This document shows positions 7,272 to 23,703 of a stretch of 64,000 bases of DNA, one piece after another. Both the position numbers and the translations under genes were made by a program. The notes below the pieces were generated by a model. It searched no databases and was not told the DNA's origin. It saw only the letters and a program-made list of their open reading frames with translations. The stretch comes from Hyphomicrobiales bacterium (GTDB lineage: Bacteria > Pseudomonadota > Alphaproteobacteria > Rhizobiales > JACESI01), in contig JBDWKL010000012.1 in NCBI GenBank assembly GCA_039973685.1, positions 1 through 64,000 on the forward strand, given 5' to 3'. Every line of letters begins with the position of its first letter. Within the stretch, counting starts at the first letter, position 1.

Positions 7272-8978
7272 GTGACAGAACCTACAAAAACAGAGCATCA
7301 AGCCGTTTATCCTAAAAATTTCAGAACCCTAACCGATGCCCTTGATTTCTCTGAGCAGGCAGAAACAGGGATGAATTTTTATGCTGGACGCGGCGAACTC
7401 GTTGAAACCATCCTTTATCGCGATCTTGCAAAAGAAGCATCCGAGGTCGGACGGAAACTCCTAGCTAAGGGGCTAAAACCCGGAGACCGGGTTGGGCTTG
7501 TTGCCGAGACCGAAGCAGATTTTGCACGTGCTTTTATGGGGTGCCTTTATGCCCATTTGGTTCCTTGCCCCCTGCCCCTTCCAATCGCGTTTAGTGCGTC
7601 AGGTGCTTATGCCGAGACCTTAAAGCGCGTCCTTGATGTTGCAGACGCCTCTGCCATTGTTGTTGCGCCACAATACCAAAAACTCCTTGCAGATCACCTC
7701 CAGGGCTATGATTTTAAATTCTTCCAGTCCGTTGGAGAATTAGGGGACGAGATGGCAGACCTGCCTTCTGAAAGCCCGAAAGATAACGATCTTGCCTATA
7801 TCCAATTCTCATCTGGAACAACAAGCACGCCAAAAGGGATAGCTGTTTCTCATCAGGCCATGATGGCCAATATCGATGGCATGGTCAGCGATGCTCTTAA
7901 GCTTGGCTCTATGGATCGGGGCGTGAATTGGCTTCCCTTCTACCATGATATGGGATTGGTCGGTTGCATGCTGCTGCCGATCGCCAGTCATATGTCGATC
8001 GATTATCTTCCAACACGCGACTTCATTCGGCGGCCTGCCCTTTGGGTTACCCTCATGAGCCGGAACAAAGCCACGCTCACTTATGCGCCGACCTTTGGTT
8101 ATGATCTGGCAGCCAAGCGCAAGCCCAAGATTGATGATCTTGATCTATCAAATTGGCGGATTGCTGGGCTTGGTGGCGATATGATTAAGTCTGATAGCAT
8201 AAAGGCTTTCATCGACAGTTATGAACCACATGGCTTTCGTAAGACCAATTTTCTTCCAAGCTATGGCATGGCGGAAATGGCACTGGGCGCAACCTTTGAA
8301 AAACTTGATCAAGGGATTCATGCTGAACGATTGGACCTCACAGCTCTTGAAGAAGGGTTGGCATCGAAAACAGATGAGAGCACCCCTAATTCTCGCGAAT
8401 TCGTCTCGTGCGGCACGATACTTCCAAATCATCAGCTCGAAGTGAGAACCTCGAGCGGAGCGATCGCCGAGGAGCGTGCCGTCGGCACAGTTTTCTTAAA
8501 AGGCCCAAGCGTTATGCAGGGCTATTACGGCAACGAAGAAGAAACGACACGCACACTTGATCAAGACGGCTGGCTCAATACCGGTGACCTTGGTTATCTT
8601 GATAGCGGCAATTTAACACTAACTGGCCGCGCCAAAGACCTCATTATTATCAATGGTCGCAATATCTGGCCTCAAGATATTGAATGGTCCATAGAGCGAT
8701 CTGTAAACGGCGCAAAAGAGGGCCGTGTGGTCGCCTTTAACGGCCTTCCAGACGCAAGTAATGAAGAAGAGATCATTTGCGTTGTCGTGGAATTCCGCTC
8801 CAAAGATGAGGCAGAGCGCGACAGTTTTAGGCGAGAAGTAGAAGCCTTTATCAAATCATCTTTTTCCGTCACACCAATTGTGGCTCTTTCAGCCTCTGGT
8901 CTTTTGCCTCGCACATCATCTGGAAAACTAAGCCGGAATAAGGCTCGAGCAATGTTCTTCGACAAAGCTTTCGATTGA
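7272..8978 (+). CDS. Fatty acyl-AMP ligase (acyl-ACP synthetase) of the sphingolipid island
   Basis: A 568-residue ANL-superfamily enzyme of the fatty acyl-AMP ligase type. The ATP-binding loop FSSGTTSTPKGIAVSH lies near residue 180, followed by the FAAL-typical WLPFYHDMGLVG. The hinge region is DLIIINGRNIWPQDIEW, and the C-terminal lysine is in SSGKLSRNKA. FAALs activate a fatty acid as acyl-AMP and load it on an acyl carrier protein rather than on CoA. The ACP gene lies 1.3 kb downstream and serine palmitoyltransferase follows it, so its likely job is to charge the island's ACP with the acyl chain. The start is GTG. In Caulobacter a similar ligase belongs to the ceramide gene set. Confidence 0.85.
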   Translation: MTEPTKTEHQAVYPKNFRTLTDALDFSEQAETGMNFYAGRGELVETILYRDLAKEASEVGRKLLAKGLKPGDRVGLVAETEADFARAFMGCLYAHLVPCPLPLPIAFSASGAYAETLKRVLDVADASAIVVAPQYQKLLADHLQGYDFKFFQSVGELGDEMADLPSESPKDNDLAYIQFSSGTTSTPKGIAVSHQAMMANIDGMVSDALKLGSMDRGVNWLPFYHDMGLVGCMLLPIASHMSIDYLPTRDFIRRPALWVTLMSRNKATLTYAPTFGYDLAAKRKPKIDDLDLSNWRIAGLGGDMIKSDSIKAFIDSYEPHGFRKTNFLPSYGMAEMALGATFEKLDQGIHAERLDLTALEEGLASKTDESTPNSREFVSCGTILPNHQLEVRTSSGAIAEERAVGTVFLKGPSVMQGYYGNEEETTRTLDQDGWLNTGDLGYLDSGNLTLTGRAKDLIIINGRNIWPQDIEWSIERSVNGAKEGRVVAFNGLPDASNEEEIICVVVEFRSKDEAERDSFRREVEAFIKSSFSVTPIVALSASGLLPRTSSGKLSRNKARAMFFDKAFD

Positions 8979-9020
8979 TAACGTAACCAGCGCTATTTGG
9001 AGCGAGGTTTAAGCGAAACG

Positions 9021-9057
9021 GCCTGTCATACAGGCGGCAAAAATCTTGATTTTTTTT
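9021..9057 (+). terminator. Possible intrinsic terminator after the acyl-AMP ligase gene
   Basis: A 6-bp stem GCCTGT/ACAGGC with a CAT loop is followed after 14 bases by an uninterrupted run of eight Ts. The AAAAATC-TT-GATTTTT segment between them could extend the structure. The distance from stem to T-run is longer than usual, so termination is only probable. Confidence 0.4.
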
Positions 9058-9090
9058 GTAGCACTTGCCGCAGAGCTGATGTTTTTCACC

Positions 9091-9107
9091 ATTTTATGAT
9101 ATAAAAT
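9091..9107. promoter_or_regulatory. Perfect inverted repeat ATTTTAT-GAT-ATAAAAT
   Basis: Seven-base arms with a 3-base spacer in the leader upstream of the sphingolipid operon. The size and AT-rich symmetry suit an operator for a dimeric regulator, but no cognate regulator lies nearby. Confidence 0.3.
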
Positions 9108-9340
9108 CGACGCTTTTCAGCCGCGCCTAACCGCTTGCTTCTCACACAAAAGAAGCATTCTGGAGTGAGAATTCGTTACCCTCGAAAAAGGCACTACCAT
9201 CTCACTTTACTGGCTCTCCAAAACCATTTTATCCATATAATTCAATAACAAACCAGCCAAAGGCTGAGATCAAAATCCATGAAATTTTCGCATGTTTGCC
9301 TAGTCTTCTCATGCCCGAAAATGTTTTTCGAATATGATCC

Positions 9341-9358
9341 AAGTTAAATTATTAACTT
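9341..9358. promoter_or_regulatory. Perfect inverted repeat AAGTTAA-ATTA-TTAACTT
   Basis: Seven-base arms separated by four bases, 135 bases before the nucleotidyltransferase start. The whole 18-base site is palindromic and stands out as a candidate operator for the operon 9493-11869. The regulator is unknown. Confidence 0.35.
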
Positions 9359-9492
9359 TGTGACCGTAAGGGAACATTCACGATTACGGCAATAGGGTAT
9401 CCTAATGCTTGATTTTTTGTCAGTCCTAGACTAGAAAGTCGCGCCACGTTAGCGTGGTTATGTTCAAGTAACTTTGGTGGAAAGATAGCGCT

Positions 9493-10299
9493 TTGCCTCA
9501 TGTAGTATTATTAAGCGCCGGCCAAGGTAAACGCTTGTCGCCTCTTACAGACAAAAAACCTAAATGCCTGGTTTCCGTTGCAGGAAAAACGCTGCTTGAA
9601 TGGCAACTTCAAGCGATAGAAGCTTGCCATCTGGAAACAGGGAATATCGACGGGGTTACGATTGTTGTCGGTTTCGAAGCAAAATCTGTCGAAGCGATTG
9701 TCAATGTTAAGCCAATCTCGCTGCCAGTGAATTGTATTTACAACCCTTTTTACACTGTAGCCGACAATATTAGCTCTTGCTGGTCTGCACAGCATTTATT
9801 GAAATCAGATTGTATTTTGATAAATGGCGACACATTGTTTGACCGTCGTATATTGGCAAAACTTTTAGGTGAGCGCGATCGTTCTATTACTGTGACGGTT
9901 GACCACAAAGAGCAATATGACAGCGATGACATGAAGGTTGTTTTGGATGGTCAACGGCTAAACCGGATCGGCAAAACGCTTACCGGTAAAATCGATGGTG
10001 AATCCATTGGCATGCTGCGCTTTCAAAAAGAGGGCGGCACGGCTTTCGTTGATGAGATGGACGGCCTGCTTCGAGACCCTGCATCATTGCGCCTATGGTA
10101 TCTTAGTGTTATTGATCGCTTAGCATCGAAAATTGACATCGGGGTCATGTCGATTGATAATCTGCCCTGGCAAGAGGTTGACTACCCTCATGATCTAACG
10201 GCGGCTGCTGATCGTTTGACCGAATTCGATTGGGACCGCAACAACAACGATCCGGAGATTAAAATTTCAACTACCACAACTGGTAGTCAGAAAAAATGA
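9493..10299 (+). CDS. Sugar/alcohol-phosphate nucleotidyltransferase (CTP-type, head-group activation)
   Basis: A 268-residue NTP-transferase-fold protein. The nucleotide-binding signature is LLSAGQGKRLSPLTDKKPKCLV at residues ~5-26, and NPFYTVADNISSCWSAQ followed by INGDTLFD supplies the metal-binding aspartate. This NPFY/N-x-x-SCW arrangement is typical of phosphocholine-cytidylyltransferase-like (LicC-like) enzymes, so CTP is the probable donor. It precedes the ACP and SPT genes, with its stop overlapping the ACP start (ATGA). In Caulobacter, as I recall, a phosphoglycerate cytidylyltransferase supplies the ceramide head group, and this protein is one of two candidates here for that role. 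The start codon is TTG, preceded by GGTGG/AAAG; the next usable starts lie inside the nucleotide-binding motif. Confidence 0.8.
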   Translation: MPHVVLLSAGQGKRLSPLTDKKPKCLVSVAGKTLLEWQLQAIEACHLETGNIDGVTIVVGFEAKSVEAIVNVKPISLPVNCIYNPFYTVADNISSCWSAQHLLKSDCILINGDTLFDRRILAKLLGERDRSITVTVDHKEQYDSDDMKVVLDGQRLNRIGKTLTGKIDGESIGMLRFQKEGGTAFVDEMDGLLRDPASLRLWYLSVIDRLASKIDIGVMSIDNLPWQEVDYPHDLTAAADRLTEFDWDRNNNDPEIKISTTTTGSQKK

Positions 10300-10529
10300 G
10301 TGAAAGCGCAACATCAAAACGCGTCCTAGAGCTTTTGAATGCTCATATGGAAGCTGGGTCCAGAGCAACTCTGGATACAAAGTTACTGGCAGACACCACC
10401 ATGGACTCTGTAAAAGTAATGAATTTGCTGCTTGAGCTTGAAGAAGAATTTGACATTACAATTCCCCTTAATAATTTAGCCGAAGCGGAGACTGTCGGTG
10501 ATCTTATTGAGGAAATTGAGAAACTTTAA
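10296..10529 (+). CDS. Acyl carrier protein (sphingolipid-dedicated)
   Basis: A 77-residue acidic helical protein. Ser38 in TTMDSVKVMNLLLELEEEF is the 4'-phosphopantetheine attachment site (DS-V/L motif). It overlaps the upstream nucleotidyltransferase stop by four bases (ATGA) and ends 68 bases before serine palmitoyltransferase. In Caulobacter a dedicated ACP next to spt is needed for ceramide synthesis. Here it probably carries the acyl chain delivered by the acyl-AMP ligase to SPT or to the N-acyltransferase. It is not the housekeeping fatty-acid ACP, whose conserved DSLDTVE motif is absent. Confidence 0.9.
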   Translation: MSESATSKRVLELLNAHMEAGSRATLDTKLLADTTMDSVKVMNLLLELEEEFDITIPLNNLAEAETVGDLIEEIEKL

Positions 10530-10597
10530 CGAACGAGAACGCATTCGCATTGAGTTGCAAAAACGATAGCATTGAAACTAGGCCGAAGTAGAGAAAT

Positions 10598-11869
10598 ATG
10601 GGAATTAAAGACCGATTAGCCACTGCCGAGAGTGTTTTTTTACAATTGAAGTCGCTGGGGAGAGATCCAAGTGCGCTTCAATTTGACAACATGAAGTCAC
10701 CGACGGAAGTCACTCTTGAGGGACGTCCTGTCACTCTATTCGGCACCAATAATTATCTTGGCCTCACTTTCGATGAAGGGTGCTTGAATGCCGCTGCTGA
10801 AGCCGTACGCGCGCAGGGAACTGGCACGACTGGGTCACGCATTGCAAACGGAAGCTACACCAGCCATTCGGCTCTAGAACGAGAAATCGCTTCGTTTTAT
10901 GACAAGCGTTATTCCATGCTGTTTTCCACTGGCTACACAGCTAACTTGGGAATGATATCGGTTCTGGGCGACAAAGATGATTATCTGGTCATCGATACTG
11001 ATAGCCACGCTTCAATCTATGATGGTTGTCAAATGAGTAGCGCGGAAGTTGTTCGTTTCCGTCACAACTCCCCCGAAAGCCTCGCCAAACGCCTTAACCG
11101 TCTTGAAGGCACAGCTGGCGATAAAATTGTTATCATCGAGGGCCTGTACTCCATGCTCGGTGACACCGCGCCTATTGATGAGTTTGTTGCCGTCAAAAAA
11201 GAAGCTGCGGATGATAATGTTTACTTGCTTGTTGATGAAGCTCACTCCCTAGGCGTTTATGGCGCGACAGGCCGTGGTAAAGCGCAAGCGGATAGTGTCG
11301 ATCAGGACGTTGATTTTATTGTTGGTACTTTTTCTAAAAGTGCTGGCACGACGGGTGGCTTCTGTGTCTCTAACCTTGAGAACTTTAACACCCTACGCTT
11401 TTTATCAAGGCCTTACATGTTCACAGCGTCGATGACGCCGAGCGCCATTGCAACGGCTCACATCGCCTTTGAAATCATGGCTTCGCGCCCGCACCTGAAA
11501 CAAAGATTATGGAAAAACAGCAATCATCTCTATCACGGTGCTGCAGCTCTTGGTTTCCGTGTCGGTCCAGAAGTAAGCCCAATTGTTGCGGTTATCTTGC
11601 CTGATCCAGCCACTGCAGTGATATTCTGGAATCGTCTGATTGACGAAGGAATTTATACCAATATTGCCGTCCCACCAGTCACACCTGGCAATCTCTCACT
11701 TTTACGAGTTTCGATTTCTTCAGCGCATACCGAAGAGCAAATTGTTCATGCTCTTAATGTCATGGAAAGTGTTGGCGTCGAGCTTGGTATAATAGAGAAG
11801 AAAACGAAAGTGGTGCCGCATCCAAACTCTCGAGAATTAAGAGTTGTTAACGGAGACGACGCTCAATAA
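10598..11869 (+). CDS. spt: Serine palmitoyltransferase (alpha-oxoamine synthase)
   Basis: A 423-residue PLP enzyme of the alpha-oxoamine synthase family. The PLP-binding lysine is Lys247 in GTFSKSAGTTGG. DTDSHASIYDG contains the histidine that stacks on the cofactor, and LLVDEAHSLG the aspartate that pairs with its ring nitrogen. It condenses an acyl thioester with L-serine to 3-keto-sphinganine, the first committed step of sphingolipid synthesis. The alternatives, KBL, ALA synthase and BioF, are less likely because an ACP, an acyl-AMP ligase, a lipid kinase and a ceramide-synthase-like gene surround it. Its 3' end overlaps the convergent gene at 11847 by 23 bases. Confidence 0.9.
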   Translation: MGIKDRLATAESVFLQLKSLGRDPSALQFDNMKSPTEVTLEGRPVTLFGTNNYLGLTFDEGCLNAAAEAVRAQGTGTTGSRIANGSYTSHSALEREIASFYDKRYSMLFSTGYTANLGMISVLGDKDDYLVIDTDSHASIYDGCQMSSAEVVRFRHNSPESLAKRLNRLEGTAGDKIVIIEGLYSMLGDTAPIDEFVAVKKEAADDNVYLLVDEAHSLGVYGATGRGKAQADSVDQDVDFIVGTFSKSAGTTGGFCVSNLENFNTLRFLSRPYMFTASMTPSAIATAHIAFEIMASRPHLKQRLWKNSNHLYHGAAALGFRVGPEVSPIVAVILPDPATAVIFWNRLIDEGIYTNIAVPPVTPGNLSLLRVSISSAHTEEQIVHALNVMESVGVELGIIEKKTKVVPHPNSRELRVVNGDDAQ

Positions 11870-12752
11870 GAAGCCGACAAAAAACCAGCGGAGCCGCGAT
11901 CCAAGGGAAACGCTGCTCCCAAGGCTTAAGCACAACCTCACGACCTGAATGTCGCTCTACTTTGGATAGAGCGTAAGCAATTCCGCCACGAAATGTGACT
12001 GCGGCTTTAATGAGCCGCAAAAGGTTTTGAATTTTCCCAATCTTGCGGCGACGCGCCCACTGTTTGTGCGCCTTAGCATAGTCGCTTGTTGGGATTGGGT
12101 GCTTCGACGTGTCGTCAACAAAAGCTGTAAAAAGCGATTGGTAAAGCGCTGGCGCTTTTGCAACGATCATCTCAGCTCGACTACCACTTTCAACGCGCAG
12201 TTCTGCGCCATATGTTCTGCTGAAAAGATCGGTCCACAATGCTGTTGCGCAATGCGTGTTTGATGACAACCGAAAAGCCCACCACATAGCCGTTTGATAC
12301 GCAGAAGAAATTGCATCAATCACGGTCTCACGACCTTCTTCATCGCGGCAATAGACAAGACGTGCTGGTTGAGAAAACCGCGCCCATAAGGTTGTGTCCC
12401 AACTTTTAGGCGACATTTTTCGACGAAACGCAGAAAGCGTCATCACAGCAACCTTGGCGCTTACCGCGCCCGTCTCATTCTCAACCTCTTCGAAATAAAC
12501 ATTCGGTGGTAGGATCTTGTTGAAGAATGCGGACAATCCTGCGCCATGATAAGAGCTATTGCTCTCTGTGAGCACATAGAAATCAAGAAGCCCATCAGCT
12601 TCAACTTCTCTCAATCGATTACCGTAAAACAAAACAGCAGCGACACCACGTCGTTTCGACAATTTCTCGACCATTGCATCAATTGTTTTATCAGTAGGCT
12701 GATCAAGCAATGCAACGATGGCTGCTTCATTTTGTTGGTGGTTTTCTATCAA
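11847..12752 (-). CDS. Nucleotidyltransferase-fold-like protein of the sphingolipid island
   Basis: A 301-residue protein I cannot assign to a named family. Near residue 42 it has VLFYGNRLRE, then LLDFYVLTES, which recalls the minimal nucleotidyltransferase pattern G-S/N-x-x-R ... D-x-D, but the second aspartate is replaced (D-F-Y). FRRKMSPKSWDTTLWARF and the basic C-terminal half may bind a lipid or nucleotide. It starts with TTG and overlaps the hydroxylase stop by four bases (TTGA), so it lies in one minus-strand operon with the hydroxylase and lipid kinase. A role in ceramide head-group assembly is inferred from position only. Confidence 0.6.
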   Translation of the reverse strand: MIENHQQNEAAIVALLDQPTDKTIDAMVEKLSKRRGVAAVLFYGNRLREVEADGLLDFYVLTESNSSYHGAGLSAFFNKILPPNVYFEEVENETGAVSAKVAVMTLSAFRRKMSPKSWDTTLWARFSQPARLVYCRDEEGRETVIDAISSAYQTAMWWAFRLSSNTHCATALWTDLFSRTYGAELRVESGSRAEMIVAKAPALYQSLFTAFVDDTSKHPIPTSDYAKAHKQWARRRKIGKIQNLLRLIKAAVTFRGGIAYALSKVERHSGREVVLKPWEQRFPWIAAPLVFCRLLIERRLR

Positions 12753-13576
12753 GAAGAATCACTCATTTGTTCAATAATTTCATCCGAGCGGCGCGTTGCA
12801 GATTCGAACCGATCTTCATATTTGAGCGTATTGCGTAATGGATCTTTATAAAAAGCCGAAAACCGAATTAAGCGGAGAAAAACCCAGTTCAACAATCGAC
12901 CGGACCAGCGCATAGGGCGGTCAAAGTCCAGAAGAAGGATCACCCGTTCTTCATCCGTATCGTTCCAAACTTCATGTTCATAGGTATCATCAAGAACAAT
13001 CAATTCGCCCGGTCTCCAACATCGAATTTCTTGATCAACCCGTATGCGGCATTTTTCTGCGTCTTTTGGGATTATCAATCCAAGATGAGAACGAATAAGT
13101 CCCTTCGTCACGCCCGTATGAGCGGGAATATGATAACCAGGTGCAAGGATGGATAACCAAGCAATTTGTATGTTTGGAATGCGGGCCAGCATTTCTGCGG
13201 TCTTAGGCATTTTTTTGCAGTTTTTCTCAAACTTTTTGCCAAACCCAAAAAGGATAAACGTCCGCCAATTTTTCGCGGTAGCAATGCGGTACTGATCGGG
13301 TGAGATTTCTTGAAACCCCGGGATCGCCTCACGATGCTTCAGCACTTCTTGAGTCTCTTCAGCAATGTCCTGCCAACGCTCTACTATTTCATCCATAAAA
13401 GGAAAGTGAGCTGGATCGAGAAACGGTTCATCTGGCACCAAACTTACTCTGGATTGGTGTCCTGCCATCCAACGCGTGATCTTCTTGCCAGCGCGTTTTA
13501 CTCGGCGACGAATTGGGTTATTGAGCGATGCCGGCTTAGCGGCTACAGCTTTTTCTGATGTGTTCAATTTTGTCAT
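12749..13576 (-). CDS. Aspartyl/asparaginyl beta-hydroxylase family dioxygenase (LpxO/AspH-like)
   Basis: A 275-residue Fe(II)/2-oxoglutarate dioxygenase of the Asp_Arg_Hydrox family. His153 in PGYHIPAHTG and His201 in DDTYEHEVWN correspond to the two iron-binding histidines of this group. LIRSHLGLIIP between them contains the 2-oxoglutarate-contacting arginine and histidine. Members hydroxylate either proteins (AspH) or lipid A acyl chains (LpxO). There is no cleavable signal peptide, but the basic N-terminus (RRRVKRAGKKITRW) could anchor it at the inner membrane face. Its place between the lipid kinase and the nucleotidyltransferase-like gene makes hydroxylation of a sphingolipid acyl chain or base an attractive inference. 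Confidence 0.8.
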   Translation of the reverse strand: MTKLNTSEKAVAAKPASLNNPIRRRVKRAGKKITRWMAGHQSRVSLVPDEPFLDPAHFPFMDEIVERWQDIAEETQEVLKHREAIPGFQEISPDQYRIATAKNWRTFILFGFGKKFEKNCKKMPKTAEMLARIPNIQIAWLSILAPGYHIPAHTGVTKGLIRSHLGLIIPKDAEKCRIRVDQEIRCWRPGELIVLDDTYEHEVWNDTDEERVILLLDFDRPMRWSGRLLNWVFLRLIRFSAFYKDPLRNTLKYEDRFESATRRSDEIIEQMSDSS

Positions 13577-13623
13577 AGGTCACTATGTAATAGCCTGCAC
13601 AACACTTGTCGATATGTTCATCA

Positions 13624-14553
13624 TCAAATGGAGATGAAATAGACGTTTTCCTGCGCACTGATTGTTATTTTCTGCTTTTGATCAATGGATATAAGCTCTC
13701 CATCAAGTACTAAAGGTGTATCGATGATGAGATCAAGTTTTTCTGCGCTTCCCGAATGATACCCCCTCTTCAACATCCAATTCATGCACCTGCCCGTGGC
13801 TGCAATAAGGGAGGCGGGGACAAGATAAGGGGCGGGCGCTAAGACATCTGTCCACCGGATCGACCCTTCCCCCTTCCCCCAGAAAGGATTAAGGCCAGCA
13901 ACCAACGGTCCCTTTAAGGTCGTAACAAGCCCAATGAAGCGATTGCCTTGTTCCATGGGTTCTCCGTCAAGGGTGAGGTCAAGCGGAATTCCCTGACGCA
14001 TTACTCCCTTACGTCCTTGTAAAAAAGCCGACTTCAACGTTTTGAAAAATACGTCCAACACTTGCAAAGGTCCAGTCGACGTATTTTCCTCGATGGCAAA
14101 TTGAGTAGCGCGCGCAAAAGCACCCCACCCCATCATGAACCCACGCAAAGAAGCGCGTTCTGATCCTTCAAAATCAAGTCGAAGCATTGGCACCTTTTGC
14201 ATGAATGACGCATCTTCATGTGCGGGTAAATCTTCGATTTTCAACAGTGATGCAGGGCTATGAAGCGCGCCTGTGTTTCGTGCAATCAAATTGGTGTTGC
14301 CGTTGGGCAGAATTCCGATAAACGGCAAATCAGAGCCATAAATATCTGGAAGATAGCTAAGAATTTCTCGCACAGTTCCATCACCACCATCAACGATAAT
14401 GCACTTAACACCATCCCTGTGTAAGCCTGTTAAAAGAGCCGGCAAAGCAGCAATACCCGTTAAATCGATAGGTTTTATATTGGATGGGTAAGGCTTGGTT
14501 TTCCCAGCACGATTTTTGGAACTTGACGGATTACGAAGGACAACAAACTGCAT
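13624..14553 (-). CDS. DAGK-type lipid kinase, candidate ceramide kinase
   Basis: About 310 residues. The diacylglycerol kinase catalytic motif GGDGT is at residues 56-60, followed by GILPNGNTNLIARN, and the N-terminus VVLRNPSSSK is the usual first strand. These kinases phosphorylate lipid alcohols such as diacylglycerol, sphingosine or ceramide with ATP. In Caulobacter a DAGK-family protein of the sphingolipid cluster (CpgB) acts as ceramide kinase. In this island the same role, ceramide to ceramide 1-phosphate, is the best inference. The ATG at 14553 was chosen over a GTG six codons upstream because it gives the standard family N-terminus. It is the first gene of the minus-strand trio. Confidence 0.8.
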   Translation of the reverse strand: MQFVVLRNPSSSKNRAGKTKPYPSNIKPIDLTGIAALPALLTGLHRDGVKCIIVDGGDGTVREILSYLPDIYGSDLPFIGILPNGNTNLIARNTGALHSPASLLKIEDLPAHEDASFMQKVPMLRLDFEGSERASLRGFMMGWGAFARATQFAIEENTSTGPLQVLDVFFKTLKSAFLQGRKGVMRQGIPLDLTLDGEPMEQGNRFIGLVTTLKGPLVAGLNPFWGKGEGSIRWTDVLAPAPYLVPASLIAATGRCMNWMLKRGYHSGSAEKLDLIIDTPLVLDGELISIDQKQKITISAQENVYFISI

Positions 14554-14684
14554 CAGCTTTTCACCAACCACGAATGCGATATTTTGCTGTTATGCATTGT
14601 TGTCATTTCTTGTTATATCACTTTTGTTATCTCATCGCTTCTACCTTCTTTGATGCGACAAGCCAACCAAGCTTAATAATCAAT

Positions 14685-15588: not shown

Positions 15589-16020
15589 CTGAACGAGACA
15601 TTTGAAAAATTTGGCTGGCCGCATACCAAAGTCATCGAACTTGATCATTGGTGCATCATGGTGCGACCGGCGCAACCGGTTCTTGGTGCCTTAGTCCTTG
15701 CATGCAAGCAACCCGTCACCGCATTTAGCGACATTGACGAAGATGGGTTTCGTGAACTTCAAATAGCCACAAAGACCATTGAAACAATGCTCAAAGCCGC
15801 AGTTGATTATGAGAAAATCAATTACCTGATGCTCATGATGGTTGATCCTCATGTGCATTTTCACGTTTTACCTCGATATTCGGGAACACGAGCATGGCAA
15901 GGGATCCAAATGGATGATGATGGGTGGCCCGGCCAGCCAGACCTTGGCAAGGCGGTAAAACTGACATCAGATCAACAAACAGATATGGTAGCTTTTCTCC
16001 GAAGTCACAGTTCAACCTAA
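15589..16020 (+). CDS. HIT family hydrolase, probable CTG start
   Basis: A histidine-triad protein of about 143 residues, with H88, H90 and H92 in MVDPHVHFHVLPRY. HIT proteins hydrolyse or transfer nucleotides from phosphoramidate and dinucleoside substrates. The first ATG (15658) would remove the conserved N-terminal strand (NETFEKFGWP, then DHWCIMVRPAQ). No ATG, GTG or TTG lies upstream in frame before the stop at 15565-15567. A CTG at 15589, preceded by ACGGGAAC, restores the full family N-terminus and usual length. If that is wrong, the CDS is 15658-16020 (120 residues). It may process nucleotide by-products of head-group activation. Confidence 0.65.
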   Translation: MNETFEKFGWPHTKVIELDHWCIMVRPAQPVLGALVLACKQPVTAFSDIDEDGFRELQIATKTIETMLKAAVDYEKINYLMLMMVDPHVHFHVLPRYSGTRAWQGIQMDDDGWPGQPDLGKAVKLTSDQQTDMVAFLRSHSST

Positions 16021-16054
16021 ACGGTTGCAAGTTGATCAAGGCGAATGAAGGAAC

Positions 16055-17266
16055 ATGATGGGATACATCGCAAAATTTAAGATCAGCCAGCTTGATGTCT
16101 ATTTGCTCCGTCAAATGCTTCCTCGTATGGGAGGCGCACTTCTCGTTGCCCTTGGTGCACTTCTGATCGAGCGCATTTTACGCCTTTTTGATCTGGTAAG
16201 CGGTTTGGGAGCAGACGTTGGTCTTGTTCTGTCACTCGCGCTCAATCTTGTGCCGCACTATATCGGCCTTGCTCTGCCTGCGGCTCTTTGCTTTTCAATT
16301 CTAGCCAGCTTAGGCGCGCTTTCTAAGTCGAATGAGATTGATGTTTTGGAAGGTTCCGGCTGGTCCTTAAGGCGGATCGGCATTCCTTTCATTGCTTGCT
16401 CCATCGTGATGGTCTTCATTAGCCTTGTCCTGTTTGGGACAATACAGCCCTACAGTCGTTACGCTTTTCATGAAGTCCGCTATCAAATCAAGACGGCTGG
16501 ATGGCAAGGTAAGGTCGAGCAGACCTCCTTCTTTGATATTGGCAAAGGAATGACCCTTTCAGTGGGAGAAGCTGACCCCAATAATCGGCTTTTTTATCAT
16601 GTGTTTCTTTTGCGCAATGATGAACAAGGCGAAACCGTAACAACGGCACGCCGCGGAACATTGGCTCAAACGAAAAATGACGAAGGCTTTTATTTAGTGC
16701 TTGAAGATGGCCAAGTATTTCTATCAGACGGCCAAACAATCAAATTTGAAACGCTCCCCATATCACGCCGCTTCAACCTTGAAGACATTCCGTTTCGAGA
16801 ACGAGGCGATAGCCATCGCGAACTTACTTTCTTTGAATTATGGGATCGAATGCATTCAGCCGAAGGCGGCGAAGCTGAGCCGCGTTTTGCAACAGAATTT
16901 CACAATCGTTTAATCCGCGCAATTTCCTTAATCGCGGTTGCCTTCATGGCTGTACCCTTGGGCATAAACCGGAAAAGAGTGCCGACATGGCGGCGCGCCG
17001 TTATCGCAATCGCGATACTTGCCGCCTACGATAACATTATAAAATTCGTTGCAGGGCTCGCAGCACTTGGACGTATAGACCCTGCTTTCAGTCTTTGGGG
17101 ATTATGTAGTTTTTTCATTGCGGGTGGCTTTTGGCTATATTTCACGACACCCAGCCAAGGCTCGAATTCGCCCTTCAGTCAATTTATCGCCACTATCAAT
17201 GACTGGATGTTCTATATAGGGCGGAAGTTACCTTACAAATCATCTAAAGCGCGACAATTACCGTGA
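16055..17266 (+). CDS. LptF/LptG-family permease (island copy 1, LptF-like)
   Basis: A 403-residue membrane protein of the YjgP/YjgQ family. Membrane segments lie near residues 25-45, 58-85 and 104-125, then a periplasmic beta-jellyroll-like region (~130-275), then three C-terminal membrane segments (about 290-385). The opening ISQLDVYLLRQMLPRMGG and the coupling-helix-like LSKSNEIDVLEGSGWS are typical. In the Lpt system, LptF and LptG form the channel that lifts LPS to the LptC/A bridge. This copy sits in the sphingolipid island and is coupled to a second permease at 17263, so export of the sphingolipid to the outer membrane is the likely task. Housekeeping LPS export cannot be excluded. Confidence 0.82.
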   Translation: MMGYIAKFKISQLDVYLLRQMLPRMGGALLVALGALLIERILRLFDLVSGLGADVGLVLSLALNLVPHYIGLALPAALCFSILASLGALSKSNEIDVLEGSGWSLRRIGIPFIACSIVMVFISLVLFGTIQPYSRYAFHEVRYQIKTAGWQGKVEQTSFFDIGKGMTLSVGEADPNNRLFYHVFLLRNDEQGETVTTARRGTLAQTKNDEGFYLVLEDGQVFLSDGQTIKFETLPISRRFNLEDIPFRERGDSHRELTFFELWDRMHSAEGGEAEPRFATEFHNRLIRAISLIAVAFMAVPLGINRKRVPTWRRAVIAIAILAAYDNIIKFVAGLAALGRIDPAFSLWGLCSFFIAGGFWLYFTTPSQGSNSPFSQFIATINDWMFYIGRKLPYKSSKARQLP

Positions 17267-18306
17267 CACTCAGTTTTTATCTATCACGCTTTATTGGCAT
17301 CCGTATCTTGATGGCTTGGTTTGCTCTCGCCATTCTTGGCATTAGCCTTGACCTGTTCCAAGCTGCAAACGACATTATTCCGCTTGGCGGTGCGCCCCGA
17401 CTTTTGGAATACGTCATCTTTAGAACGCCTCAAATCTTAATAACGCTGTTTCCAGTCGCAACGTTGATCGGAGCGACGGTTGCTTTTTTAAGCCTTGGAA
17501 ACAATCTGGAAGTGATCATATTACGCGCGGCTGGATGCGGCATATTCGTTATTCTGCTTCGGCTCATTCCGCTCGGTATCTTGCTTGGCCTTTTATATAG
17601 TCAGGCTGGTGATCGTGTGAACAGTTGGACGGCGGAGAAACTTGCTCTCTCTTTTCCCGAAATTAGAAATCAAGCGCCCGTTGGCTCATGGATGTGGGCA
17701 CGCGATGGCAGCAACATCATTCGCGCACGTGTTGGAAACGAGGACGGCACGCTCCTTCATGAGCTGACTGTTTATGAAACCAATTCAAAAGGACATATCA
17801 GTGCACGCTTGACCGCTGAGCAGGCAACTTATGACGATGATCAATGGACCCTTTCTAAGGGGAAAAAAATTCAACCAGATGCAAAAGAGGCGGAAGAACC
17901 CCAAATATGGTCAACGCTTCTTTCACCTGACAGCGTTCGAGAGATTGCCAGTAAATCGGTCGATGTGAGCGCAGCTGATGCTCGTGAGGCTTTGTTGGGC
18001 AATGCCGTGACCACCCGCTCAACCGCCTATTATGCAACCCGCATTGCGCGCAGTTATTCTGCGATTGCTTTACCCTTTGCCATCCTTATGTTTGCCGCGT
18101 TAGCAGGTTTAGGCGGCACACGTAATGACAGTGGATTACGGCTTGCATCCTATTCCCTTATTCTTGGTTTCTGTTACATCGTCGTTGATGGCATGTTTGG
18201 CTCGTTAGGCGAAACCGGAATAATGCCCCCCTCTATTGCCGCTGTTACCCCAACGCTTATCTTCATCATTGTCGGAGTATGGGGTTTGGTTGTCCTTGAT
18301 GAGTGA
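17263..18306 (+). CDS. LptF/LptG-family permease (island copy 2, LptG-like)
   Basis: A 347-residue partner of the preceding permease, with the same 3+3 membrane-helix layout. The N-terminal segment is SFYLSRFIGIRILMAWFALA. VATLIGATVAFLSLGNNLEVIILRAAGCG is the LptG-like coupling helix region, and three hydrophobic helices follow residue ~255. The start is a GTG overlapping the upstream stop (GTGA), so the two are translated together as expected for a heterodimer. No ATPase (LptB) is encoded here, so the pair would have to use the chromosomal LptB. It ends four bases after the potential GTG of the N-acyltransferase gene. Confidence 0.82.
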   Translation: MTLSFYLSRFIGIRILMAWFALAILGISLDLFQAANDIIPLGGAPRLLEYVIFRTPQILITLFPVATLIGATVAFLSLGNNLEVIILRAAGCGIFVILLRLIPLGILLGLLYSQAGDRVNSWTAEKLALSFPEIRNQAPVGSWMWARDGSNIIRARVGNEDGTLLHELTVYETNSKGHISARLTAEQATYDDDQWTLSKGKKIQPDAKEAEEPQIWSTLLSPDSVREIASKSVDVSAADAREALLGNAVTTRSTAYYATRIARSYSAIALPFAILMFAALAGLGGTRNDSGLRLASYSLILGFCYIVVDGMFGSLGETGIMPPSIAAVTPTLIFIIVGVWGLVVLDE

Positions 18307-18323
18307 CGGAAAGGTTCCCCACA

Positions 18324-19457
18324 ATGCTTGAAATTGTGAGTGTTTCGACAAAGCGCGACCTTGATGTTTTTATCAAGATACCGGGCATGCTTGCGGCCAA
18401 TGATCCTAATTGGATCGAACCCCTATGGTTCGAGCGAAAACAGTTTCTTTCCCCCAAGCACAATCCGTTTTTTCAACATGCTGATACAGCATTCTGGATT
18501 GCCTATAACAATGGCAAACCAGCAGGGCGTATCAGTGCTCAAATTGATCATTTATCCGCAACCGATGAAGATCGACGCATCGGATTTTTTGGCCTGATTG
18601 ATGCCCGCGATGATGCTGTTTTGGACGGCCTTTTGAAGGAAGCAGAAAAATGGCTTTCCCAAAGAGGCGTTGAAAGTGTGCGTGGGCCGTTCAGCCTATC
18701 CATCAACGAGACCGCTGGTCTGCTTGTCGATGGCTTTGATAGCCCGCCCTATGTGATGATGGACCATCATGACCCTTGGCTTGGGCCTGCCGTTGAAAAG
18801 CATGGATATAGCAAGGTAAAAGATCTCGTCACCTATCGACTTGAGACAACAAATGGCTTGGAAGATCGTTTTCGCTCCATTGCCCAGCGTCCTTACGACG
18901 GACTTACAATCCGCTCGATCAACATGAAGCACTACGCAGAAGAAATTGTGACCGTCACTTCAATTTTTAACGACGCATGGGCTGGCAATTGGGGCTTCAT
19001 TCCGCTCACTGAAGCCGAAATTGATGCGATGGCAAGTGAACTAAAACCGATCCTCGATCCTGAGCTGGTAAAAATTGCGGAACTTGATGGGAAGCCTGTC
19101 GCCTTCATCGTCCTTCTGCCCAATATCAACGAGGCGATCACTGATCTTGGCGGAAAACTCTTGCCCTTTGGCTGGCTCAAGCTTTTGTGGAAACTCAAAG
19201 TCTCCGGTGTGCGCACTGCCCGTGTGCCACTGATGGGTGTACGGCAGGAAATTTCCGACACGCTGATTGGAAAAGCACTACCGCTGCAACTGATTTATGC
19301 TCTTGAAGAAAGAGCCAAAGCGCGAAACATTCAAGAACTGGAATTAAGCTGGCTTTTGGAAGACAACAAGTCTGTGCGCAGTGTGGTAGAAGCAATTGGT
19401 GGCCAATTGTCTAAAACCTACCGCGTTTACGAAAAAGATCTAGGGTCGTCATCATAA
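18324..19457 (+). CDS. GNAT-fold N-acyltransferase, bacterial ceramide synthase (bCerS)-like
   Basis: About 377 residues, in the family long annotated as hypothetical or dATP pyrophosphohydrolase-like GNAT. The Caulobacter member was shown to be the bacterial ceramide synthase. The recognisable core is FQHADTAFWIAYNNGKPAGRISAQID, RRIGFFGLIDARDD, VRGPFSLSINETAGLLVDGF and FNDAWAGNWGF. A C-terminal ELSWLLEDNKSVRSVVEA acetyl-CoA-site helix follows. The expected reaction is N-acylation of 3-keto-sphinganine. A GTG at 18303 overlaps the upstream stop, but GGAAAGG (18308-18314) lies well placed before the ATG at 18324, which I chose. Family recognition is good; the reaction is inferred from family and island. 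Confidence 0.8.
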   Translation: MLEIVSVSTKRDLDVFIKIPGMLAANDPNWIEPLWFERKQFLSPKHNPFFQHADTAFWIAYNNGKPAGRISAQIDHLSATDEDRRIGFFGLIDARDDAVLDGLLKEAEKWLSQRGVESVRGPFSLSINETAGLLVDGFDSPPYVMMDHHDPWLGPAVEKHGYSKVKDLVTYRLETTNGLEDRFRSIAQRPYDGLTIRSINMKHYAEEIVTVTSIFNDAWAGNWGFIPLTEAEIDAMASELKPILDPELVKIAELDGKPVAFIVLLPNINEAITDLGGKLLPFGWLKLLWKLKVSGVRTARVPLMGVRQEISDTLIGKALPLQLIYALEERAKARNIQELELSWLLEDNKSVRSVVEAIGGQLSKTYRVYEKDLGSSS

Positions 19458-20224
19458 TGGAGTGGCAAGCTCTCGTTCTGGCCGGATCGCGCGGTTCTTC
19501 CGACCCAGTGGCAGCACATGCGGGCATAGCGCACAAAGCTTTTGTTCCCATCGCTGGAAAACCAATGATCGAGCATGTGGTGCAGACCTTAGAAGGTGCG
19601 GCAAACATTCGCGATATTGCCGTGTCGATTGAAACGGATGCTCTCGCGCTACCTCCAAGCACGACAAGATTAGATGCGGCCAGTTCACCAGCGTCAAGCG
19701 TCCTTAGCGCTCTTGACCATCTTGATACGCCGCTTCTCATCACGACCGCAGACAATCCGCTTTTGCGCGGCGACACTCTTGCTCATTTTCTAGAAGAATC
19801 CGCAAACTCTGATGCCGATATTCTAGCCGCTGTCAGCCCACGGGACGTGGTTGAAAAAGCCGACAAACCGGGAAAGCGCACCTATATTAAATTTTCCGAT
19901 CACCATGTAAGCGGGTGCAATCTTTTTGCGGTCAAAACACAAAGAGGACGAAATGCGATCGCATTTTGGAGGCGGTTAGAACAAAACCGTAAAAAGCCTT
20001 GGAAGATGGCTTCTGAAATCAGCTATTTAGCGCTCTTTAAATATCTCATTGGCAGCCTTGATAGCAAACAGGCCATTAGAGGATTGGAAGAAAAAATGGA
20101 TTGCAAAGCATCATTGATATTTCTTGATGATCCCTATGCGGCCCATGATGTCGACAAGCCAGAAGATTTGGCTTTTGCAGAACGCTGCCTTCAACGCGAT
20201 CAAACTAAGCGCATCGCTCAATAG
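19457..20224 (+). CDS. MobA-like NTP transferase (second island nucleotidyltransferase)
   Basis: A 255-residue nucleotidyltransferase. The loop VLAGSRGSSDPVAA is a variant of the LAAGxGxR motif; HKAFVPIAGKPMIEHVVQTL contains the conserved lysine; TTADNPLL provides the metal-binding aspartate. This MobA-like group transfers a nucleotide to a phosphorylated small molecule. The ATG overlaps the preceding stop (TAATG), so it is coupled to the ceramide-synthase-like gene. That makes it the stronger candidate for head-group activation, for example a CDP-glycerate-forming CpgD-like enzyme as described in Caulobacter. Substrate and nucleotide are not determined by the sequence I can see. Confidence 0.75.
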   Translation: MEWQALVLAGSRGSSDPVAAHAGIAHKAFVPIAGKPMIEHVVQTLEGAANIRDIAVSIETDALALPPSTTRLDAASSPASSVLSALDHLDTPLLITTADNPLLRGDTLAHFLEESANSDADILAAVSPRDVVEKADKPGKRTYIKFSDHHVSGCNLFAVKTQRGRNAIAFWRRLEQNRKKPWKMASEISYLALFKYLIGSLDSKQAIRGLEEKMDCKASLIFLDDPYAAHDVDKPEDLAFAERCLQRDQTKRIAQ

Positions 20225-20237
20225 GTAGCCCTATTGC

Positions 20238-20999
20238 TCAAATTCTTCCAAGCCATCGCGGTTTTTTGCGATTGGCCCAATAACGAATTTTCGAGCTTAG
20301 CCCGCTGGTTAAATGCTTGTTTTCAACCACAGCTAGATCGTCATCAAGTTTGTAATATTGAGGGATGGCTGTTGAGATTCGATAAGCGCCACATTGAGCA
20401 TCATCTAATCCCTCAATGCATCGCGCTAACCCTCGAATTGAACTTGTATGAGCGACAATCAACACACGTTTGTTTGCCTTAAGCGCTGAGCCTATCTCAT
20501 TATTCCATAAAGGCTCAACACGCTTTGCGGCTTGCGCCATGCTTTCACTCTGCGGTTGAAGGTCCACTGGAATGTCGGGAAGCCGGTCAAGTTGCTCTAT
20601 CCATCGCGGGTCGCTTTTTTCCAATTTTGGTGGGACCGCGTGATAGTCTCGTCGCCATTCAACTACCTTTGCATTACCGTGTTGCTCAATCATTTCCCCG
20701 CGCAATTCACCTTGCAAAGCACCGTAATGACGTTCATTTAATCGCCAGTCATAGGTAATTGCATCTTCTGACAACCCCAACTCGTTTGCCATGATCAACG
20801 TCGTCTGTTTTGCGCGCATCAATTGCGATGTGTAGCAAACATCAAAGACGTGCCCCGCCCTCTTTAAACTTTGTGCGGCAAGCAAGGCTTCATGTTGCCC
20901 ACTCTTGGTCAAAGGCGTATCTGCCCAACCTGCAAAACGATTTTCTTTTGCTGATTGGGTCGCGCCATGTCGAACAAGAAACAGGATAGGCATCTTCAA
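20238..20999 (-). CDS. Histidine phosphatase superfamily, phosphoglycerate mutase-like
   Basis: A 253-residue protein with the catalytic LVRHGAT motif near residue 10, the substrate arginine in LMRAKQT, the general-acid glutamate in NERHYGALQG, and the second catalytic histidine in VAHTSSIRGL. The NERHYGALQG box and the length match cofactor-dependent phosphoglycerate mutase (GpmA) rather than short phosphatases. The usual GHGNSLR is changed to AHTSSIR. It converges on the MobA-like gene inside the sphingolipid island. If the head group is phosphoglycerate, an isomer-specific mutase would make sense; otherwise it may be the glycolytic enzyme or a phosphatase. Confidence 0.78.
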   Translation of the reverse strand: MKMPILFLVRHGATQSAKENRFAGWADTPLTKSGQHEALLAAQSLKRAGHVFDVCYTSQLMRAKQTTLIMANELGLSEDAITYDWRLNERHYGALQGELRGEMIEQHGNAKVVEWRRDYHAVPPKLEKSDPRWIEQLDRLPDIPVDLQPQSESMAQAAKRVEPLWNNEIGSALKANKRVLIVAHTSSIRGLARCIEGLDDAQCGAYRISTAIPQYYKLDDDLAVVENKHLTSGLSSKIRYWANRKKPRWLGRI

Positions 21000-21196
21000 A
21001 TTCCGATAGTGAAAAAAACTTTCTATCAGTTAGATGTTTTGTTGCAAAGTGACGTGGTGCTGCTTATGGGGTCTGCTTGTGGTGTTTTATATCGGATTAT
21101 GACATCTATGTGCCGAAAGACGAAAAACTGGAATCGGTTAAAAATGACGTATCCAACCAATTTCACGATGCATGAGAGAAAGTTCAAAGGCTTTTG

Positions 21197-22579
21197 ATGT
21201 CAGACGAAGTTGGCAAACGAGTTCGCAAGAACACAGGCCTGATGCTGGGGGCCAAAATTATCGGAGCCGTGTTTGCTCTGTTTGGGCTCGTGTTTGCCGC
21301 TCGAGGGCTGACAACTGAGCAATTCGGCATTCTTATTTTCCTTCACGCCTACATTTTGTTTTTTACCGGCGTTGCCACCTTTGACAGCTGGTTAATCGTT
21401 GTACGACGTGCCGCAGGTGGATTGACTGGCGAAGACGCCTTGCGAGGTGATCCTAATCACTTCGGGCGAATTTTCAGGTTTTGCGTTTCCCTTGACCTTT
21501 TATCTGCGAGCGCTGGCTTTATTGTTGCCATTGCCATTGTATTTTTGTTTGGCCGTTCGCTCGAAATTCTCGAAGGCGCATCGCCTTATATTTTCTTTTA
21601 TACGTTTCTGATTTTTCTCAATCAAAAATCGGCAAGTGTCGGCGTCCTGCGGCTCTTTGATCGCTACGATTTGATCGCCCTGAATTCGATAACGATCCCC
21701 TTCGTCAGAATGGTAGGTTGCGGCATTGCTTGGCTCAGCGATGCACCGTTTTTGGTCTACGTAATGGTGTGGTTTGCAGGATCTGCGATCAGCTATCTCA
21801 CCCTGCCGGTTCTGGCTGTAATTGAGATGCGCAAACACAACCTTTGGTCAAAAGCGCTTGATGGTCGCATCAGCCTAAAAGCACCTGAGACGAAACTTTG
21901 GCGTTTTGTTTTATATACGAACATAGACACAGGACTTGCCGCTGGCGCGACACTCCTTCCGGTGATCCTTGCCGGTGTTGTGGGCGGACCAGTTTTTGCA
22001 GCAACCTTCCGTGTGGCCCAAGAAGTTGCAACCGTACTTGCAAAAGGCACGAAGATGGTGGAGCGGATCGTCTATCCAGAGTTCACCAGCCTGATCGCAA
22101 AGGGTGAAGGCAATCGCGTCCCCATTCTTGTTCTACAAACGGGGGGAGTGATGCTGATACTGGGTTCAGTGATTGGGTTAATAGTCTGGCTTGCTGGTCC
22201 TTATCTGTTATCGCTAGCATTTGGGGCTGCCTACGCCGATGCAACGGGCCTTGCCGTTCTCCTCATCATGGGTGCAGCGGTCACAGCGGCAGCAGGGCCA
22301 CTCTTTCCAGCCTTTTATGCAGCGGGAAAACCTAAAAAAGTCATTTTTGCACGTGCTTTAGGGCTTGCAGTCATGGTCAGCAGCTTCTTTCTGCTCTACC
22401 ACCTGATTGGAGAAATAGGCACCGGGTTTGCCGTTCTTTTAGGCGCGCTTATTTCATTGATAGTCGTCGCATATATCGCAAAACAACATGACTGGTCTCA
22501 GACCAAAGAACAGACCACAATGGAGGGACATCAGATGCAACAAGTCCTTCATTCCTCTGAGGAGAAAAGAAAACCATGA
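21197..22579 (+). CDS. MOP-superfamily flippase (oligosaccharide/lipid flippase)
   Basis: A 460-residue protein with 12-14 hydrophobic helices and few charged segments, opening KNTGLMLGAKIIGAVFALFG, the Wzx/MviN-like N-terminus. MOP flippases move lipid-linked precursors across the inner membrane. The ATG at 21197, preceded by CAAAGGC, was chosen over the TTG one codon before. It overlaps the CDP-alcohol phosphotransferase gene by four bases (ATGA), so the two are coupled. A role in flipping a sphingolipid or its head-group-modified form is inferred. A second MOP flippase lies in the exopolysaccharide locus. Confidence 0.78.
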   Translation: MSDEVGKRVRKNTGLMLGAKIIGAVFALFGLVFAARGLTTEQFGILIFLHAYILFFTGVATFDSWLIVVRRAAGGLTGEDALRGDPNHFGRIFRFCVSLDLLSASAGFIVAIAIVFLFGRSLEILEGASPYIFFYTFLIFLNQKSASVGVLRLFDRYDLIALNSITIPFVRMVGCGIAWLSDAPFLVYVMVWFAGSAISYLTLPVLAVIEMRKHNLWSKALDGRISLKAPETKLWRFVLYTNIDTGLAAGATLLPVILAGVVGGPVFAATFRVAQEVATVLAKGTKMVERIVYPEFTSLIAKGEGNRVPILVLQTGGVMLILGSVIGLIVWLAGPYLLSLAFGAAYADATGLAVLLIMGAAVTAAAGPLFPAFYAAGKPKKVIFARALGLAVMVSSFFLLYHLIGEIGTGFAVLLGALISLIVVAYIAKQHDWSQTKEQTTMEGHQMQQVLHSSEEKRKP

Positions 22580-23703
22580 ATACGAAAGAGGAAGCTCGTC
22601 TTTGCCTTGTCGGTGATCAGCCTTTTGAAATCTATGGCTTATCAATTAATGAATGGCAAAGCCGGAACTGGGCGAAAGCTGGGATCGAAAAAGCAGCTGG
22701 CACCATTTATGTAGCAACGCCTTGGGTGCTATCTTCAGGTCTTGCTGCTGCACTCGTAAGCACTCCAGGTGCAGCGCTCGTGAGCAATGGGTCCGGCCCA
22801 AAACGTTTGATTGCCGCTCATGTTAGTGGTGACGTCGACACGTCAGCACTCAAAGCGCTGATCGCCGCGCCACAAGTGAGCGATGAGGCAATCTCCGCAC
22901 TTAATTTAAAACCGCAAACGGCAGAAGAATTAGCAGGCTTCTACAACAAAGAGCTACGCAAACGTGAAGCGCCCTTTGCGATTGATATCGAAACTCAGGG
23001 CCTGCGGGCGGCCGAGCAGGCGCTTTTCGACAGTTCTTATAAAGGCGTCACTGATTTCGTCACCAAATTTGCGTGGCCAATTCCTGCCTTTTGGGTAACC
23101 CGCTTTTGTGCAAAATGGCATATTTCTCCAAACACGGTCACAACCCTTAGTCTTGTTTTCGTACTCCTTGCCCTGTGGTTCTTCTGGAACGGTCAATGGG
23201 CACTTGGGTTTATTACTGGCTGGTTTATGACCTTTCTCGATACCGTTGATGGCAAACTGGCCCGCACAACTTTAACGTCATCAAAGTGGGGAAATATTTA
23301 CGATCACGGCATTGATTTAATCCATCCTCCGTTTTGGTATTTCGCGTGGGTTGAAGGGATCAAGGCAAATGGTCTAGTTCTGCCTGATTGGATTGAAGCA
23401 GCTCTTTGGATCACGCTTGGCGGCTATGTATTTGGCCGTATTGTCGAGGGAGTATTCATCCACTACCACGGTTTTCACATCCATGTGTGGTGTCGTATCG
23501 ATAGCTTCATGCGATTTATTACTGCCCGCCGAAATCCAAACACATTTATCTTTATGATATTTTGCATCATAGGTGCGCCAATTGCAGGTTTTGCAGCGGT
23601 TACCATTTGGACAGTGCTTTCAAACGCTTTCCATCTAGTCCGTTTGATACAAGCAGGATTAAGGCCTGCAAAACCACCCCTCATCTCTTGGATGACGGTT
23701 TAA
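22576..23703 (+). CDS. CDP-alcohol phosphotransferase with an N-terminal extra domain
   Basis: A 375-residue protein. The CDP-alcohol phosphotransferase motif is complete: D222, D225, G226, A229, R230, then G239, D243 and D247 (DTVDGKLAR, then WGNIYDHGID). This is the signature of enzymes that exchange CMP of a CDP-alcohol or CDP-acyl donor for an alcohol. Membrane helices follow residue ~180. The first ~160 residues resemble a degenerate nucleotidyltransferase or another accessory domain (CLVGDQPFEIYGLS, IYVATPWVLSSGLAAALV) without catalytic motifs. In archaeal IPC synthases a cytidylyltransferase is fused at the same place. It is the candidate for final head-group transfer to ceramide. Confidence 0.82.
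   Translation: MNTKEEARLCLVGDQPFEIYGLSINEWQSRNWAKAGIEKAAGTIYVATPWVLSSGLAAALVSTPGAALVSNGSGPKRLIAAHVSGDVDTSALKALIAAPQVSDEAISALNLKPQTAEELAGFYNKELRKREAPFAIDIETQGLRAAEQALFDSSYKGVTDFVTKFAWPIPAFWVTRFCAKWHISPNTVTTLSLVFVLLALWFFWNGQWALGFITGWFMTFLDTVDGKLARTTLTSSKWGNIYDHGIDLIHPPFWYFAWVEGIKANGLVLPDWIEAALWITLGGYVFGRIVEGVFIHYHGFHIHVWCRIDSFMRFITARRNPNTFIFMIFCIIGAPIAGFAAVTIWTVLSNAFHLVRLIQAGLRPAKPPLISWMTV

Follow-up and report, generated by a model that had tools for sequence, protein, structure and literature searches.

A probable Caulobacter-type phosphosphingolipid gene cluster with an added candidate lipid hydroxylase in a Hyphomicrobiales bacterium

What lipid is encoded by the dense sphingolipid cluster that occupies positions 7272–23703 of the window, a 64,000-nucleotide stretch of contig JBDWKL010000012.1 from a Hyphomicrobiales bacterium (assembly GCA_039973685.1)? 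An earlier note, made from the letters alone, had read this region as a self-contained island for the synthesis and export of an anionic, possibly hydroxylated ceramide, perhaps a substitute for lipopolysaccharide (LPS). Profile matches placed every ceramide, head-group and export gene named there at its coordinates and in its proposed family, and the sphingolipid cluster is real; what had escaped recognition was the published ceramide-phosphoglycerate (CPG/CPG2) cluster of Caulobacter, along with the identity of one gene at 11847–12752 on the minus strand, which had been left unnamed. As judged by homology and gene order, the window cluster matches CC_1166–CC_1152 of Caulobacter gene by gene and belongs to this published system, which is widespread in Alphaproteobacteria, and is not a new island. 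The hydroxylase is its only new part. That the cluster makes ceramide bearing an acidic head group is very likely, assignment to the CPG/CPG2 type specifically is likely, and the overall reading of a Caulobacter-type phosphosphingolipid cluster with an added lipid hydroxylase is probable.

The Caulobacter cluster, CC_1168–CC_1152, contains five genes leading to dihydroceramide and six more leading to CPG and CPG2 (PMC11324152). Export has been proposed to rely on LptC2, a flippase and an additional LptF/LptG pair (PMC11324152, PMC12275187). A comparison of gene order, as the earlier note had proposed, showed that the window cluster corresponds to CC_1168–CC_1152; the ceramide synthesis, anionic head group and duplicated LptF/LptG pair foreseen in that note match the CPG2 cluster. 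Gene identities, synteny and clade linkage come from such comparisons. The layout AasR-CerR-AcpR-SPT / CpgC-CpgB-CpgA / metallophosphoesterase-HIT-LptF2-LptG2-bCerS-NTP2 / CpgD was recovered in many other Alphaproteobacteria, and the clustering is far above chance because the identical gene set co-clusters in dozens of other genomes. The overlaps of 1–4 bases already noticed were confirmed for six gene pairs: five of 4 bp (CpgD-like transferase/acyl carrier protein, CpgC/hydroxylase, LptF2/LptG2, LptG2/bCerS and flippase/CDP-alcohol transferase) and one of 1 bp (bCerS/NTP2). Promoter scans gave hits at chance level only.

The five-gene ceramide set (aasR, cerR, acpR, spt and bCerS) is complete in the host genome, with four members in the cluster. 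The acyl-AMP ligase AasR (acyl-AcpR synthetase, CC_1165 type; 7272–8978, plus strand) scored 665 bits against the fatty acyl-AMP ligase model NF006624, over its cut-off, and matches AasR of Escherichia coli BL21 at 39%. The specialised acyl carrier protein AcpR (10296–10529, plus strand) has a PP-binding domain with the DS motif at residues 37–38 and matches its BL21 counterpart at 40%. Serine palmitoyltransferase (SPT; 10598–11869, plus strand), 48% to the BL21 enzyme, carries the pyridoxal-phosphate lysine motif GTFSKSAG and passed the curated model NF047599 with 590 bits at a cut-off of 500. Its best PDB match was the serine palmitoyltransferase 2x8u at 405 bits compared with 179 bits for KBL, and on these scores the KBL/BioF identity, which the earlier note had named as refuting its reading, was rejected. 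The ceramide synthase-type N-acyltransferase bCerS (18303–19457, plus strand) matches YghO of BL21 at 46% over 375 residues, and its pairing with NTP2 is conserved. The functions of AasR, AcpR and SPT have been studied in E. coli BL21 (PMC9386255).

The fifth member, cerR, is absent from its usual place. Relatives encode a CerR of about 310 residues between aasR and acpR, where the window has a 514-bp non-coding gap (8979–9492) with stops in all six frames. A CerR homologue was found instead on contig C43 of the host genome (265 bits, the next match scoring 100; 33% to BL21 CerR). Within the order, CerR follows SPT: nine of the ten other CerR-positive genomes also have SPT, and three congeners without SPT have no CerR. 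The cluster is thus not self-contained, because CerR is encoded in trans, and no second LptC was found either.

The head-group genes are all present by homology or synteny, namely cpgB and cpgC for CPG and cpgA, cpgD and the CC_1153- and CC_1158-type genes for CPG2. The ceramide kinase CpgB (13624–14571, minus strand) shows a DAGK_cat domain (PF00781) with the GGDGT motif and the expected synteny. The unnamed gene at 11847–12752 converges on SPT and is followed by the kinase in relatives, and by this synteny it is assigned as CpgC (CC_1161 type), part of the pathway. Sequence searches of CpgC against Pfam, NCBIfam and the PDB gave nothing above cut-off, and a fold search alone identified it. 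An AlphaFold model built from 15 cluster homologues (pLDDT, the predicted local distance difference test, 88.7) gave as top PDB matches the Tam41 cytidine diphosphate (CDP)-diacylglycerol synthases 6ig4, 6ig2 and 7ecd (E 4e-6 to 1e-5), enzymes that use cytidine triphosphate, and the protein has both this predicted fold and the nucleotidyltransferase motif, with the YG..L/D residues invariant. The Caulobacter authors had suspected an activation like that of CDP-diacylglycerol synthase from an InterPro domain (PMC11324152). The modelled fold supports the predicted conversion of ceramide-1-phosphate to CDP-ceramide, and a CDP-ceramide synthase is the function that we favour for CpgC by a modest measure. 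CDP-ceramide would thereby become a concrete intermediate to assay for the reaction that follows ceramide-1-phosphate on the way to CPG.

The remaining head-group genes include a CpgD-like nucleotidyltransferase (cytidine triphosphate:phosphoglycerate cytidylyltransferase; 9493–10299, plus strand, TTG start; NTP_transf_3), which is 52% to the cluster homologue of Limibaculum and whose R14, K24 and D113 fit the R/K/D pattern that CpgD is reported to have in its active site (PMC12275187). NTP2, a MobA/CofC-like nucleotidyltransferase of the CC_1153 type (PF12804; 19457–20224, plus strand), adjoins bCerS in relatives as well. A metallophosphoesterase of the CC_1158 type (PF00149; 14685–15575, plus strand) is conserved in relatives and probably starts at about 14685 and not at 14484, where the reading frame opens. 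CpgA, a CDP-alcohol phosphotransferase with an N-terminal domain (PF01066; 22576–23703, plus strand), has the DxxDGxxAR..GxxxD motif at 222 and is 52% to the cluster CpgA of Roseovarius.

Additionally, a 2,3-bisphosphoglycerate-dependent phosphoglycerate mutase-family protein (20238–20999, minus strand; TIGR01258, 215 bits at a cut-off of 81.7) lies inside the cluster. Other clusters do not share it, and only one weak homologue turned up in the other loci. Its catalytic motif RHG stands at residues 10–12 and VAHTSS at 182, where standard phosphoglycerate mutases have AAHGNS. This paralogue may be a source of 2-phosphoglycerate, which CpgD prefers as its substrate in vitro (PMC12275187).

The gene that sets this cluster apart encodes a predicted 2-oxoglutarate dioxygenase of the Asp/Asn β-hydroxylase family (OlsC/LpxO-like; 12749–13576, minus strand), located between cpgB and cpgC. 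The possible hydroxylation raised in the earlier note is supported, although that note did not single out this gene. The protein passed the Pfam cut-off for PF05118, the Asp/Asn β-hydroxylase superfamily, with 173 bits, and its H153 and H201 (metal) and R211 (2-oxoglutarate) align to human AspH 5apa and are conserved across its clade. It is the single copy of the family in the host genome, whereas Caulobacter vibrioides has no member of the family. In a class sample of 384 alphaproteobacterial genomes, 48 of which have SPT, the nearest hydroxylase clade comprised eight other genomes, all eight with SPT (Fisher 3.5e-8), or five of five when counted by family (p = 2e-5), while of 30 more distant family members 7 were in genomes with SPT.

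A scan of GTDB genomes yielded 80 named relatives of the hydroxylase, and 32 of the 39 that were well flanked (by 9 kb or more on each side) adjoin two or more sphingolipid genes. At least five arrangements occur in sphingolipid clusters. The hydroxylase gene lies between cpgB and cpgC in Limibaculum and Neomegalonema, precedes aasR in Roseovarius, follows cpgD in Hellea and Litorimonas, precedes bCerS in Aestuariivirgaceae and Anderseniella, and adjoins SPT in genome G261. One Hyphomicrobiales contig (L235) carries two hydroxylase copies near bCerS and NTP2. The analogy with OlsC and LpxO suggests hydroxylation of the ceramide acyl chain, and it is fairly probable that the sphingolipid is the substrate of the enzyme. 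We lean, with slightly less assurance, towards a reading in which the clade is the acyl hydroxylase dedicated to the ceramide-phosphoglycerate lipids of Alphaproteobacteria and has become associated with sphingolipid clusters more than once, in several arrangements.

Such an enzyme would be an alternative to the DesA-type CC_0202, a member of another family that has been implicated in Caulobacter. The host genome has one PF00487 desaturase-family gene, on contig C13. Hydroxylation of the amide-linked chain is reported to decide whether Caulobacter phosphosphingolipids are polymyxin targets (PMC11324152, citing earlier work). Literal term matching in open-access papers turned up no report of an Asp/Asn-hydroxylase-type enzyme from sphingolipid clusters of bacteria, a negative that does not prove absence. 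Earlier comparisons would miss the gene because they used Caulobacter proteins as queries (PMC11324152). If the proposed role holds, genomes of Roseovarius, Hellea, Limibaculum, Aestuariivirga and other taxa would reveal ceramide hydroxylation, and marine strains that can be cultured would allow it to be tested.

For the probable export of the lipid, the cluster contains a second pair of LPS-type permeases and a flippase. LptF2 (16055–17266, plus strand) scored 205 bits against PF03739 and 175 against the canonical LptF model, below its cut-off of 230, and LptG2 (17263–18306, plus strand) scored 153 bits against PF03739 and 176 against the LptG model, cut-off 240; a canonical LptF/LptG pair lies separately on contig C37. 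A HIT-domain protein in the CC_1157 position (PF01230, HVHFH motif; 15658–16020, plus strand) is kept adjoining lptF2 in relatives. The MOP-type flippase (CC_1166 type; 21194–22579, plus strand) is 36–37% to the cluster flippases of Robiginitomaculum-type genomes and 26% to the BL21 cluster transporter. In the cluster of Roseovarius lutimaris (L172:8423–9843), inspection of the translation by eye showed LptA-like and LptB-like frames that separate cpgD from the hydroxylase gene, which suggests a more complete second Lpt machine there.

Together, these genes can be arranged into a pathway whose catalytic steps in this host are proposed, as are the CDP-ceramide intermediate and the hydroxylase's substrate and site of action; it is supported by published genetic work on Caulobacter (PMC11324152) and by the biochemistry of CpgD (PMC12275187). 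AasR would charge AcpR with a fatty acid that SPT would join to serine, and CerR, acting in trans, and bCerS would finish dihydroceramide. CpgB would then phosphorylate the ceramide and CpgC is predicted to make CDP-ceramide, with the phosphoglycerate head groups added by CpgD, the CofC-like transferase, CpgA and the phosphoesterase. The predicted target of the OlsC/LpxO-family enzyme is the N-acyl chain, with C-2 as the probable site of hydroxylation, and the MOP flippase and LptF2/LptG2 would move the product towards the outer membrane.

Several observations weigh against this pathway and have to be set beside its support. The structural match of CpgC to Tam41 is moderate (template modelling score 0.46–0.58), and 7 of the 39 well-flanked clade members lack a linked pair of sphingolipid genes within 10 kb. 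A search for OlsB, aimed at excluding ornithine lipid as the hydroxylase substrate, failed to exclude it: an OlsB-like gene is present in the host genome, making ornithine lipid a possible substrate. Unlikely on balance is the alternative in which the hydroxylase is an OlsC or LpxO whose substrate is ornithine lipid or lipid A, housed in the cluster for outer-membrane co-regulation only. Its best curated models are indeed the OlsC equivalog NF052565 (218 bits) and the LpxO equivalog NF033391 (121 bits), and the genome has LpxC as well as the OlsB-like gene. However, these scores are far under the respective cut-offs of 450 and 500, so that the protein is neither OlsC nor LpxO by these tests; clade members score 224–253 bits with the OlsC model compared with 433–500 for OlsC-type proteins, the clade tracks SPT, and one genome (G154) has two distinct genes, one for this hydroxylase type and the other for a genuine OlsC (500 bits). 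A further point on the negative side is that a second LptC (CC_1168) was not found, the host genome giving one LptC match, on contig C18. LptC2 would nevertheless be optional and not a defining member of the cluster, because it is also reported missing in the Nitrosomonas, Azotobacter and Pseudomonas luteola clusters (PMC11324152).

The nature and use of the product can be questioned in other ways. CpgA resembles inositol-phosphate transferases and matches the DIPP-synthase and archaetidylinositol-phosphate synthase models, which would suit a different CDP-alcohol product, such as an inositol-phosphate head group, in place of (di)phosphoglycerate; these matches reach only 42–45 bits at cut-offs of 170–580, all CPG2 genes and a CpgD-like enzyme are present, and the mutase paralogue lies inside the cluster, making this improbable. 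The LPS substitute of the earlier note, in a host without LPS or able to dispense with it, recalls that Caulobacter survives LPS loss partly through CPG2 (PMC12275187), but it is weakened to a very improbable reading by the presence of LpxC, the canonical LptF/LptG pair and LptC. Because these genes are in place, the sphingolipid most likely supplements LPS. Hardly probable at all is a degenerate cluster making no dihydroceramide: the non-coding gap in the usual place of cerR would fit it, but all other genes are intact and the CerR homologue on C43 follows SPT in its distribution.

The origin of the cluster was examined with trees. In the SPT tree, the window groups with Thermohalobaculum and Limibaculum (sister, support 99), apart from the SPTs of its own order, and in the hydroxylase tree it groups with Neomegalonema and Limibaculum. 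Most cluster genes have their best matches in Thermohalobaculum or Limibaculum clusters, the exceptions being the flippase and CpgA, which match Robiginitomaculum- and Roseovarius-type clusters best; three congeners lack SPT. Composition gives no foreign signal (GC 47.5% versus 48.2%). On the simplest reading, the cluster appears to have been transferred from Limibaculum/Neomegalonema-like Rhodobacterales and to have a mosaic end, and the transfer would not be recent because the GC content has ameliorated. A mosaic, transferred cluster would mean that the acidic sphingolipid trait passes as a whole from one order to another.

Directly past the cluster, a secreted-looking DUF2147 protein (23738–24226) is a possible periplasmic partner, and DUF2147 also stands past the NTP2 end in the two closest clusters (L168:1462–2067, L170:530–2083). 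Judged from translations only, two photolyase/cryptochrome-like genes around an oxidoreductase lie just upstream (779–5378), and imelysin-like, di-haem-peroxidase-like and DUF1513-like proteins at 25824–30879 resemble an iron-uptake cluster. Among other sphingolipid clusters, a secreted DUF2141-family protein, not seen in the window cluster, was found in 32 (L126, L154, L172, L193 and 28 further linked loci), mostly in the vicinity of lptF2 or bCerS. A HAD-type phosphatase (L202:6632–7447 and 26 other loci) and a cyclopropane-fatty-acid synthase-like protein (L211:8615–9940 and 20 other loci) recur in Hellea/Robiginitomaculum-type clusters, where further lipid modification is possible.

Compared with known systems, CpgC shares with the mitochondrial CDP-diacylglycerol synthase Tam41 the predicted fold and the YGS..D nucleotidyltransferase core, but the two are only about 11–16% identical, and the predicted substrate of CpgC is ceramide-1-phosphate whereas that of Tam41 is phosphatidic acid. 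The hydroxylase has in common with OlsC (ornithine lipid acyl 2-hydroxylase) and LpxO (lipid A hydroxylase) the family, the metal and 2-oxoglutarate residues and an expected lipid acyl hydroxylation, and differs in falling below both equivalog cut-offs and forming a clade of its own that is linked with SPT genomes and clusters. The E. coli BL21 yghO-aasR-epi-acpR-spt-lptG-lptF cluster has the ceramide core, an Lpt-like pair and an exporter, with no cpgB, cpgC or cpgA and no hydroxylase annotated in the stretch examined. The clusters of Thermohalobaculum xanthum and Limibaculum sediminis (L168, L170) share the order AasR-[CerR]-CpgD-AcpR-SPT-CpgC-hydroxylase-CpgB-...-metallophosphoesterase-HIT-LptF2-LptG2-bCerS-NTP2, but keep cerR and cpgA in place and have neither the terminal flippase/cpgA pair nor the mutase. 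Finally, the window has in common with Caulobacter crescentus CC_1168–CC_1152 aasR, acpR, spt, cpgC, cpgB, cpgA, the phosphoesterase, HIT, lptF2, lptG2, bCerS, the CofC-like and CpgD-like transferases and the flippase. It differs in being without cerR and lptC2, in having cpgA moved beside the flippase and cpgD placed between aasR and acpR, and in the addition of the phosphoglycerate mutase paralogue and the hydroxylase.

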